NCBI RefSeq assembly: GCF_024758705.1
Contig: NZ_CP096971.1
Coordinates: 2,232,001-2,296,000 of the forward strand
Direction of reading: 5' to 3'
Length of the DNA: 64,000 nt
DNA from: Sphingomonas sp. SUN019
Lineage (GTDB): Bacteria > Pseudomonadota > Alphaproteobacteria > Sphingomonadales > Sphingomonadaceae
The number at the start of each line of letters is the position of its first letter. Position 1 is the first letter of the stretch. The position numbers were made by a program, and so were the translations under genes. This document shows positions 9,296 to 16,345 of this stretch, piece after piece. The notes beneath the pieces are model-generated. The model worked only from the letters and a program-made list of their open reading frames with translations. It searched no databases and had not been told where the DNA came from.

Positions 9296-12156
9296 TCACG
9301 GCGCGTCCGCGTTGCGCGCACGGCGACGGGCGACGCGGACGTTGGCGCGGACGCCGGTGGTGGCCAGCGGGTTCACCAGCGCCTCATACCGGCCGAACAG
9401 ATGTTCGACGCGGTCGCGGTCCGACGCGAACGGGGAGGGGCGATAGAGTTTGTCAACGGCCGCATCGAGCGCGTGATGCGCGCGGCGGAGATCGGCGGGC
9501 ATCGTGTCGGGATCGTAAAGGTCGGCCAGACTGGCGGTCGGATGCGCGGCGCGCGCGTCGAGCACGGCTTGCGCGAGGGCCTCGATCTTCGTGCGTTGCG
9601 CCGGGGTGGCATCGGGCCACGGGAAGGTGTTATAGACGAGGCCAATCGAATAGCGAAAATCGCTCTTGAGACGACCACCGATGTGGCTGAGCCAAGCCAT
9701 ATGCGCTCGACTATTGAAAAAAGCAAAGTGCCACAGTGACGCGCCGGCCAAGCAAAGAGCGGCGTCACTCGGAATTATTGGTGGCTCCAACCACCCGATC
9801 GGCACATATTCTCGACGCTCCGAACTAACTCTTGGGATTAGCAAAAATGGCTCTGTTGGCAATAGATTAATATGATATGTTGTAGGCGTCTTGGCCAGTA
9901 CTTGTGTTGGAGGACTTTTACTTTTTTCTCGGAATGAACGGACTGACGAGATACGATCAACGACGTGTGGCATACGTCTCAATCGGTCGGGCTTTGCTTC
10001 GTGCAGGGCCAGAATCCAGCGTTGCGTTCCGTTTATGAACTCTTCTGCGCCAACAAATGGCCGCATAAGGTCAGCCGCTTCGGGCTCGATATCCAGAAAC
10101 TGACGACGTTCTGAAGAAGTGAAAATGAAATTACCGCCATCGATTGGCTTCGAGCCGATCACTAGCCGAGGGGCATCGTTGATCGGTCGACCTTCCTCCC
10201 TCACTACTAAATGTTGATTCGCAACGCCGCGAGCATCAAACAAATACGCCGTCAGCGCCTCATGCCGACTCTCGATCGGATCGCGGCGGATATCGGGATA
10301 GCTGAACAGCCGTTTCTCGTTCGGCTCGTTATCGCGGTGCGTCAGTCCGATGACTACGACATGGACGTGCGCCTTGCCGCGGGCCTCGCTGCCCCAACTG
10401 AAGGTGCGGTGCGCGAACGAGATTTCGAGATGGAAGCGTTCGAACAGGATCGGCCACAATTGCGCGACCTGTTCGCCTTGACTGATCGAATTGGTTGCAA
10501 CGAAGGCGACGCGTATTTCGCTGTTCGCTGTTCGCTGTTCGCTGTTCGCTGTTCGCTGTTGTGTATGCTTATCCGCGGCGCGCAACCACTAATATACGCC
10601 CCCGCCTTGATAAACCAGGCCGCGACGAAATCGAGCGTTCCGCCGCTGCCGCCCAGCCCGGCGATCGCGCGGACCTGCGCGCGTTGTTCGGGGGTCTGGA
10701 ACTTGGCGCCGACGAACGGCGGGTTGCCCATGATGTAGTGCAGTTTTTCGGGCGCGATCAGGCTGGACCAGTCCGCCTCCAACGCATCGGCGTGCAAGAT
10801 GTGCGCGGAATTCTTCAGCGGGATGCGCGCCGAATTGCCCTGAAACGCTGCGTTGTAATCGTTGTTGGCCAGGTGATCGGCCATCCACATCGCCACCTCT
10901 GCGATGCGCGCGGGAAATTCCTCGATCTCGATGCCATGGAATTGTTCGACCGTGACGCGGCTGAGCAGCACGGCGTCGATCTGTTGCGTAGGGTACAGCG
11001 CCTTCAGGCAATCGAGTTCCAGCCGCCGGATCTCGCGATAGGCGACGACCAGGAAATTGCCGCAGCCACAGGCGGGATCGAGGAAGGTGAGGCGCGACAG
11101 TTTCGCCTGATATTCAAGCAATGCGGCATCGCGCCCGGTGCGGCGCGCGATCAGCTTGTCGAGTTCGGCGCGCAGGTCGTCCAGGAACAGCGGCCCGATG
11201 ACCTTCATGATATTGGCTTCGGACGTGTAGTGCGCGCCCTTTGCGCGCCGTTCCTTCGCGTCCATCACCGACTGGAACAGCGACCCGAAGATCGCCGGGC
11301 TGACCCCGGTCCAGTCGTGGCGGCACGCGTCGATCAACTGCCGGCGCATCTTCGCATCGAAGACGGGCGTGCGCAGCCGCCCGGAGAACAGCTGACCGTT
11401 GATATAGGGAAAGGCGTTCAATTCCCCCGACAGACCGGTCTGGCGATCGTCCTCATGCGTGTCGAGGACGTCGAACAGCTCCATCAGGATGCGGCCGGTG
11501 TCGCTGCCGTCCTCCCGCGTGTCGTTCTGCAGCAGTTCTAGGAAGATGTCCTTGGGCTGGAAGATGCCGGTGTCGTCGGCGAACATGCAGAACAGCAGAC
11601 GGACCAGCAGTTGCTCCAGCGCATGGCCGCGGTAGTTCGCCGCCTCCAGCGCGTCGTGGAGCAAACCCATCAGTTCGGCCGCCTTGATCGTCACCCCCGC
11701 CTGCGTTTCGAACGTGCGCTGGCGGCCGAGGACAAAGGCGAACGCCTCGATATGTTGGTGCAGGTCGGCAAGCGCGAAGCGGGTTTCCGCGCCGGTATCC
11801 AGATCGAGCAGCCGCCAGGTCTGGAAATCGCATGTCAGGACATGGCGCGGCTGTTCGGCGGGCGGGATGCCGTCGATGTAGTCCAGCGCCTGCACGCCCG
11901 CGCGATCCAGGTCGAGCCGCGCGCTTTTCTGTTCGATCAACAGGGTGCGCGGCCAGAACAGGTCCATGAAGCCGTGCTTGTTGTTCAGCAGCTTCACACG
12001 TTGTTCGCAGGTGGCGACGCGCCGGCGCTTCACGCCGAAGATGTCGAAGAAATCATTGTAGAAGGACTGGGTTTCGCCCTTCTCATAATGCGCGCCCTGC
12101 CATTCTTCGCTGAACGCGCGGGCGCGGCGCTTGATCTCGTCCCAACCCAGCCGCAT
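9296..12156 (-). pseudogene. MmeI-like type IIL restriction-modification enzyme, frame interrupted at a 7-bp tandem repeat (probable phase-variable OFF state)
   Basis: Two overlapping minus-strand frames make one gene. The first (12156 to 10354) has an N-terminal nuclease site Asp65-x9-Glu75-x-Lys77 (DLFWPRTLLIEQK), a helical spacer, methyltransferase motif I FLDPACGCGNF (Asp360) and motif IV NPPF (478-481). It loses homology at AGAYI (~residue 521). Homology resumes in a second frame at RVAFVATNSISQGEQ and runs to 9296 through the target recognition and C-terminal regions. The break coincides with six tandem copies of a 7-bp unit (10517-10560). Adding one unit or removing two joins the frames into ~950 residues, the family's usual length. 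As it stands the product is a ~600-residue protein without target recognition. No other lesion is visible. MmeI-type enzymes methylate and cut with one polypeptide, so this is a single-gene defence switch by inference. Confidence 0.85.
10517..10560. repeat. Heptanucleotide tandem repeat (TTCGCTG)x6, minus strand CAGCGAA
   Basis: Six complete copies plus two bases, perfect. On the coding strand the unit is CAGCGAA. Because 7 is not a multiple of 3 the tract encodes the repeating heptapeptide SEQRTAN in every frame and contains no stop, so copy-number change alters only the downstream frame. Frame arithmetic: current 6 copies joins wrongly; 4 or 7 copies restore the MmeI-like frame. Confidence 0.97.
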
Positions 12157-15340: not shown

Positions 15341-16345
15341 TCAGCCGAGAAACTCGCCCAAGCGCGCGACGATCGCCTCCTCGAGCCGATAAATGTCGGT
15401 CAGGTCGGAAACCGCGTGGCGCGTTTCTGCCTTGTCGACGAACGTGCCGACGTAGCGCGTGGTCGGGCTGTTGAAATGCAGCCTAGCGATCGTCTTGCGA
15501 TTGTTGTCGTCGAGCAGGATCGCGCAATAGGATTTTGAATCGCGGATCACGATACGGTTAGGCGCAACGTGCCGCGCGGCGATTGCCTGAACGATACGGA
15601 AGCCGCCGATTTCGTCCTCGGTGGTGATCACGCCATCGCCCTCCGACATATCGTCCGACGCGCCCTCATCGATGATCTCGGGCGCGGGATTGGCGACGTC
15701 GAGTGCGGAGGTGAGGCGGTCGTTCACGCGATCACGGATGAACGATGCGATGGTGTTGGTCAGCGTCGCGTGAAGCTGCTCCTTCACCGCCGCGGTGATC
15801 CGGCCGACCTGCACGCGCGCCGCCATCGATTGAAGCTTCAGGCGGCTCGCCTCGGCGACGATCGAGTCGATGTCGAAATGCGCGCGGGCGAAGCGCTCGA
15901 TCGTCGTCGGGTCGGTCCGTTTCAGCGCGTTCATCGAGAAAGCGAAGAACGGCTTGTCATCCATCTTGTTCGGCTGTTCGATGTCCGAATAGAATTGGTA
16001 GATCACGCCGTTGGTCAGGATCGCAACGCGCGCGTCGGTCGTCGCGAAATAGCGGAACAGCTGCGACGCGTGTTTCAGGTCCAGTTCGACCGAGGACGGC
16101 TTGCATTCGATCAGGATGCTTAGCCGACCATCGATGCAGATGGCATAGTCGACCTTTTCGCCCTTTTTGATCCCGACATCGGCGGTGAATTCCGGGATAA
16201 CCTCAGACGGGTTGAACACGTCGTAGCCGAGCGCCTGGAGGAACGGCATGACCAGCGCGGTCTTTGCCGCTTCTTCGGTCAGCAGCAGCTCACGATGCTG
16301 CGCTGTGCGCTTCTCAAGCTCGATCAGCCGTGACGCCAGTTCCAT
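15341..16345 (-). CDS. Solitary HsdR-N-type PD-(D/E)xK nuclease-domain protein
   Basis: 334 residues. The N-terminal ~190 residues resemble the nuclease domain of type I restriction HsdR subunits and related standalone proteins. The acidic site is KVDYAICIDG (Asp66) and LIECKPSS (Glu80, Lys82), and the QLFRYFATTDARVAILTNGV block is typical. There is no helicase motor, HsdM or HsdS nearby. The C-terminal ~100 residues (from ~235) look like a small beta domain (YCAILLDDNNRKTIARLHFN) also found in such solitary proteins. Defence or DNA-repair role is inferred from the fold and the neighbouring MmeI-like gene. Confidence 0.8.
   Translation of the reverse strand: MELASRLIELEKRTAQHRELLLTEEAAKTALVMPFLQALGYDVFNPSEVIPEFTADVGIKKGEKVDYAICIDGRLSILIECKPSSVELDLKHASQLFRYFATTDARVAILTNGVIYQFYSDIEQPNKMDDKPFFAFSMNALKRTDPTTIERFARAHFDIDSIVAEASRLKLQSMAARVQVGRITAAVKEQLHATLTNTIASFIRDRVNDRLTSALDVANPAPEIIDEGASDDMSEGDGVITTEDEIGGFRIVQAIAARHVAPNRIVIRDSKSYCAILLDDNNRKTIARLHFNSPTTRYVGTFVDKAETRHAVSDLTDIYRLEEAIVARLGEFLG

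Follow-up and report, generated by a model that had tools for sequence, protein, structure and literature searches.

Does a tandem heptanucleotide that breaks a restriction-modification gene of Sphingomonas sp. SUN019 act as a reversible switch, or does it mark a gene that has been lost? The question is raised by two overlapping minus-strand reading frames in the 64,000-nucleotide stretch of DNA analysed here (hereafter the window), which meet at an array of CAGCGAA units. We approach it through the gene itself, then through the same position in its relatives, and finally by weighing the explanations that could account for both.

The divided gene and its CAGCGAA tract

The locus comprises an upstream ORF of 600 aa (12156-10354, minus strand) and an overlapping downstream ORF of 429 aa (10585-9296, minus strand), the latter counted from a nominal TTG and entering its family-conserved part at IRVAFVATNS (10516). 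According to the ORF list, Pfam and PADLOC, the upstream ORF carries MmeI_N (the nuclease), MmeI_hel and most of MmeI_Mtase, with the frame shift lying inside the repeat tract, and the downstream ORF carries the end of MmeI_Mtase, MmeI_TRD and MmeI_C; across both ORFs the five MmeI Pfam domains stand in the expected order of nuclease, helical spacer, methyltransferase, target recognition and C-terminal domain. The profiles continue from one ORF to the other, with positions 7-189 of the 259-position MmeI_Mtase profile matched upstream and 186-258 downstream, and positions 3-535 and 532-909, respectively, of the 912-position PADLOC type IIG profile. A natural full-length relative (the protein P0035) matches residues 1-913 of MmeI (PDB 5hr4) over its residues 1-945 with an E value of 1.2e-244, and the first structural match of its predicted model (mean pLDDT 82, built with 34 sequences) is again 5hr4. 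Sequence comparison thus supports the assignment of the gene to the MmeI-like (type IIL) restriction-modification enzymes, with nuclease and methyltransferase in one protein, as the first-pass annotation had proposed from the letters and their translations. The single open polypeptide of this family is absent from the assembled 6-copy allele and is found in full-length relatives, P0035 among them.

Type IIL enzymes protect DNA by adenine methylation of one strand and cleave at a distance. The putative nuclease site of the SUN019 gene (11923-11973, minus strand) comprises Asp65 in GFMDLFW and Glu75 and Lys77 in LLIEQKS, all invariant in a 34-row alignment, which we take to have the catalytic roles of their counterparts in MmeI. 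The sequence DPACGCGNF (residues 360-368; 11053-11079, minus strand) is presumably the SAM-binding motif I, and IMGNPPFVG (10708-10734, minus strand; NPPF within residues 475-483) presumably the catalytic motif IV, so that the nuclease residues and methyltransferase motifs previously described as intact are all present. Near the gene, a 334-aa ORF (15341-16345, minus strand) matches HSDR_N, the N-terminal part of type I restriction R subunits.

Six perfect CAGCGAA units occupy 10517-10558 on the minus strand, and the period-7 tract extends to 10560, Tandem Repeats Finder reporting 6.3 copies with a 100% match over 10517-10560. No other perfect period-7 tract in the window is as long as these 44 bp, the next measuring 17 bp, and in 100 Markov-1 shuffles such tracts reached at most 23 bp, which rules out an origin by chance. 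Three or more consecutive CAGCGAA units were found nowhere else in the 3,807,233-bp genome, and a 126-bp region around the tract matched only itself, by which a copy of a repeat dispersed in the genome is likewise ruled out. The tract lies downstream of NPPF in a 95-bp linker (10508-10602, minus strand) between a conserved helix (LDFVAAWFIKA) and the next conserved strand (AFVATNS), and the same linker measures mostly 33-36 bp in short-linker relatives. In the P0035 model, the linker connects a helix (residues 507-523) with a strand (545-551), and residues 526-537 have a pLDDT below 50.

With 6 copies the frame is broken and ends at a stop at codon 600, and among the copy numbers computed (0-12) only 1, 4, 7 and 10 leave the frame open, giving 941, 948, 955 and 962 aa. 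The gene therefore holds a perfect array of a unit length that is no multiple of three, inside the reading frame and far above chance, which is open at some copy numbers and closed at others. The six units, their coordinates and the arithmetic by which 6 copies are OFF and 4 or 7 open had all been given correctly in the first-pass annotation, to which 1 and 10 copies can be added; it had placed the break between motif IV and the target-recognition part, and the break does lie beyond motif IV, but it splits the methyltransferase domain itself and not its junction with the target-recognition domain.

Both halves are well preserved. Conserved residues were defined as those shared by at least 90% of 34 relatives, the window not being one of these; of such residues the window retained 216 of 216 upstream of the linker and 134 of the 135 that lie downstream (135 of 136 when the cut was placed slightly differently), and therefore the gene is not visibly decaying. 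At the level of sequence, the intact halves fit a recent or a reversible break, reversibility not being proved thereby.

Repeats and inserts at the same linker in relatives

Frame-shifting simple repeats were found in the linker of 5 out of 113 distinct DNA loci with a recognisable linker, the window included; one set of these loci was the best 80 of 554 encoding stretches, and the motif search recovered no linker in 34 of 179 loci, 11 of which were heptamer-pattern loci and not MmeI-like genes. Besides the window, the repeats are GGCTTGGC in 4.25 copies in L011, from a genome of the same genus (G012), GATCAGC in 8.1 copies in L110, from a Novosphingobium MAG whose contig ends soon after, G10 in L152 (G493) and G8 in L176 (G812, a one-contig genome), and all five loci are out of frame.

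Such repeats are concentrated at the linker: 5,440 bp of linker sequence contain 5, compared with 6 in the 317,562 bp that make up the remainder of the gene and 32 in 427,876 bp of flanking DNA. With relatedness ignored, these counts correspond to Poisson probabilities of 9e-8 versus the gene and 7e-5 versus the flanks, and of 4e-6 versus the gene when the window is left out. The homopolymer threshold in this count was 8, lowered from 9 after the G8 had been seen, and at 9 the linkers hold 4 and the rest of the gene 1. The six in-gene repeats are five homopolymers of 8 and one heptamer, and two in-gene repeats of period 3, which preserve the frame, were not counted. The heptamer is TTTTGAA in 4.3 copies and belongs to L119, an MmeI-like gene of a Prochloron MAG, where it lies close to the gene start, about 1.58 kb ahead of the linker. 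The count for the rest of the gene gives no support to repeats as a property of the gene in its entirety, and the enrichment over the flanks is the weaker of the two. Poly-G is not specific to the linker genome-wide, as runs of at least 8 number 18 in G812, 21 in G493 and 13 in G012. The SUN019 genome itself has a single G run of 9 or more, a G12 at positions 1501-1512 of locus L181 (G000:C1:1831672-1831683), immediately behind the stop codon of the ORF that spans 88-1494 in that locus, which is a possible second slippage site.

The linker also takes up other DNA. Sorted by pattern, 201 proteins from two best-hit lists comprised 98 with short and 90 with long in-frame linkers, 8 that lacked the second motif, P0150 among these being in frame by eye, and 5 left untyped. 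These proportions are not frequencies, because the three protein lists of the analysis hold the best 120 hits each and a repeat-bearing sequence served as query for two of the three. Many of the long in-frame linkers read like translated palindromic repeats, and the one whose DNA was searched against its own genome, that of G348, had 24 matches there, some of which are the two strands of one place. Long in-frame inserts that resemble dispersed palindromic repeats were observed at L147 (3061-3213, in G348), L046, L051, L052, L062, L146, L156 and L173. Out-of-frame linkers with no simple repeat also occur, namely in the DNA locus L098 (the same locus as L172), in L150, which is broken elsewhere too, and in the proteins P0027, P0076 and P0093. 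The L098/L172 locus, from Erythrobacter, has a 176-bp palindromic-looking insert and conserved halves (214 of 216 and 132 of 135 residues).

Among the proteins, the truncated P0033 (608 aa) and the full-length P0035 (959 aa) share an identical sequence in residues 1-541. Starting within the NSEQRTA repeat and running to the end of P0033, 74 of 74 codons could come from a single DNA sequence read in two frames 7 bp apart, compared with at most 8 codons in 30 shuffles. Judged by this codon compatibility, the comparison having been made from the proteins, the two fit a difference of exactly one 7-bp unit and hence an ON/OFF pair in another lineage; since both have only a few units, the difference may be a single duplication rather than the product of frequent slippage. 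An ISDQRSA repeat is likewise present in a full-length protein (P0136, 955 aa) and in a truncated one (P0084, 620 aa), here in different backgrounds. Taken together, 12 sequences bear repeats (5 identified by DNA and 7 by protein, with the repeat of P0096 and P0041 read off the protein alone), and three of them, P0035, P0136 and P0071, are in frame at the linker and nine are not, P0071 losing the frame later. Three of twelve is compatible with one in three, and therefore compatible with drift too.

A tree of the upstream halves, inferred with FastTree only from the 246 usable of 274 candidate rows (269 proteins and five loci), requires at least 8 gains or losses of repeats and 30 of long in-frame inserts. 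The octamer gene falls into a single clade with both poly-G genes, whose poly-G linkers may go back to one inherited tract, and the four rows with CAGCGAT call for 3 changes. No heptamer occurs in the five rows nearest the window on the tree (P0001-P0005), whose linkers are in frame, and therefore the tract looks recent in the window's lineage. The first-pass annotation had named relatives with continuous genes and no tract as an observation that would refute a switch, and these five rows go part of the way towards it. In a sample of one genome per species, no second allele of the window's locus was found.

In overlapping samples of genomes, the upstream half has matches with E up to 1e-40 in 27 of 250 genomes of the genus, and P0035 has matches in 27 of 396 genomes of the order at 1e-150, in 31 of 397 of the family at 1e-120, in 6 of 80 genomes of the genus of G493 and in 2 of 7 of that of G812. 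Four-copy CAGCGNN arrays were found in 4 of 295 genus genomes, SUN019 included, and so were rejected as a common feature of the genus. The other three arrays are CAGCGGG at G098:C1:147847 and G184:C2:120529 and CAGCGGT at G074:C4:235.

A probable reversible switch and its rivals

Based on these comparisons, we propose that the gene is probably a phase-variable single-gene MmeI-like (type IIL) restriction-modification system that is at present OFF, a reading already advanced in the first-pass annotation and now supported by the frame-shifting repeats that four other loci carry in this linker and by the P0033/P0035 pair with its one-heptamer difference. Slipped-strand mispairing during replication would add or remove 7-bp units at the CAGCGAA tract, and one copy number in three would restore a single open frame and the whole enzyme, in which the peptide encoded by the repeat (SEQRTAN per three units) would add a floppy loop to the methyltransferase domain. 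In either of the remaining frames, translation would stop soon past the loop; the product would contain the nuclease and half of the methyltransferase but lack the target-recognition part, so that target recognition, modification and specific cutting would be lost together; because nuclease and methyltransferase share one chain, the OFF state would remove both at once. We infer that units are gained and lost in this strain, that an in-frame enzyme would be active and that selection acts on switching, and likewise a rate and a benefit of switching.

The same break could be that of a recent pseudogene, in which a heptamer array expanded out of frame in an insert-tolerant linker and left a dead gene bound to decay. 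The many kinds of insert that the linker accepts would suit such a history, as would the out-of-frame linkers that have no simple repeat, the in-frame share of 3 in 12 that fits chance, and the nearest relatives without the tract. Against it, one of 351 family-conserved residues has been lost and decay is not visible, several kinds of repeat recur at one linker, and P0033 and P0035 differ in the way expected of a gain or loss of exactly one unit. We therefore regard a dead gene as unlikely, and the switch as likelier, because the relatives carry different repeats at the same linker.

That the 6-copy gene is functional as it stands, as two polypeptides or through ribosomal frameshifting, would agree with both halves being open and conserved and with the possible TTG start of the downstream ORF at 10585; however, the break falls inside one domain, no clear ribosome-binding sequence could be recognised by eye just 5' of that TTG, in contrast to the AAGGGGA before the upstream ATG, and no common recoding signal is apparent since the other repeat loci differ in their repeats and frame offsets, which makes a split or recoded enzyme very improbable. 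An assembly error, with the true unit number in frame and fixed, is scarcely credible: repeat counts are more prone to error than unique sequence, but the tract is only 44 bp long in an assembly of one contig (3,807,233 bp) rated 100% complete, and the repeats of the relatives and the P0033/P0035 pair would be left unexplained.

If the switch is true, its presence in a Sphingomonas-group alphaproteobacterium, together with the parallel repeats that relatives have in this protein loop, would make the origins of such switches testable, namely why this loop is used, how an array starts and whether phage pressure maintains it. The gene could also address how a cell whose chromosome is unmethylated lives through a switch back to ON. 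Tentatively, we extend the switch reading beyond this locus: it is possible, though somewhat less likely than not, that in Sphingomonadales one floppy methyltransferase-domain loop of MmeI-like enzymes has repeatedly become a switch site, where dispersed palindromic elements enter repeatedly in frame and unrelated slippage-prone arrays (CAGCGNN heptamers, octamer and poly-G) arise repeatedly. Frame switching of a complete restriction-modification system would then have arisen more than once at a single protein position among environmental bacteria.

Comparison with known systems

MmeI (5hr4) has, by way of the P0035 match, the same domain order over its whole length, but a short continuous linker where the window has the tract. 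Rickettsia palindromic elements are dispersed palindromic DNA inside genes that is read as extra protein. The long in-frame linkers of many relatives resemble them, and the window differs in having a tandem heptamer in a 126-bp region without a second copy in the genome.

The published phase-variable restriction systems compared here come from host-adapted pathogens. A literature search on Sphingomonas and Sphingomonadales found no paper, and in titles and the beginnings of abstracts no heptamer-switched member of the MmeI family was recognised. The heptanucleotide repeats of Haemophilus influenzae and Neisseria share heptamer slippage with phase variation, and titles and abstract beginnings gave no link between them and MmeI-like genes. 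In Campylobacter jejuni, Cj0031c is a single-chain type IIG enzyme switched by a poly-G in its reading frame, and it resembles the window in an OFF state of two frames and in conserved domains on either side of the tract, but its repeat is poly-G and not a heptamer, and the excerpted text mentions MmeI 0 times (PMC4889913). In Helicobacter pylori, JHP1272 / HP1353-HP1354 is described as a type IIG, MmeI-like and suggestively type IIL system with an ON/OFF repeat in frame, differing from the window in that its repeats are homopolymers and that a second repeat alters specificity by adding a domain (PMC3936762). Phase-variable type IIG enzymes are already known from Campylobacter and Helicobacter, so that the proposed heptamer switch of an MmeI-like gene would be a new variant of them.
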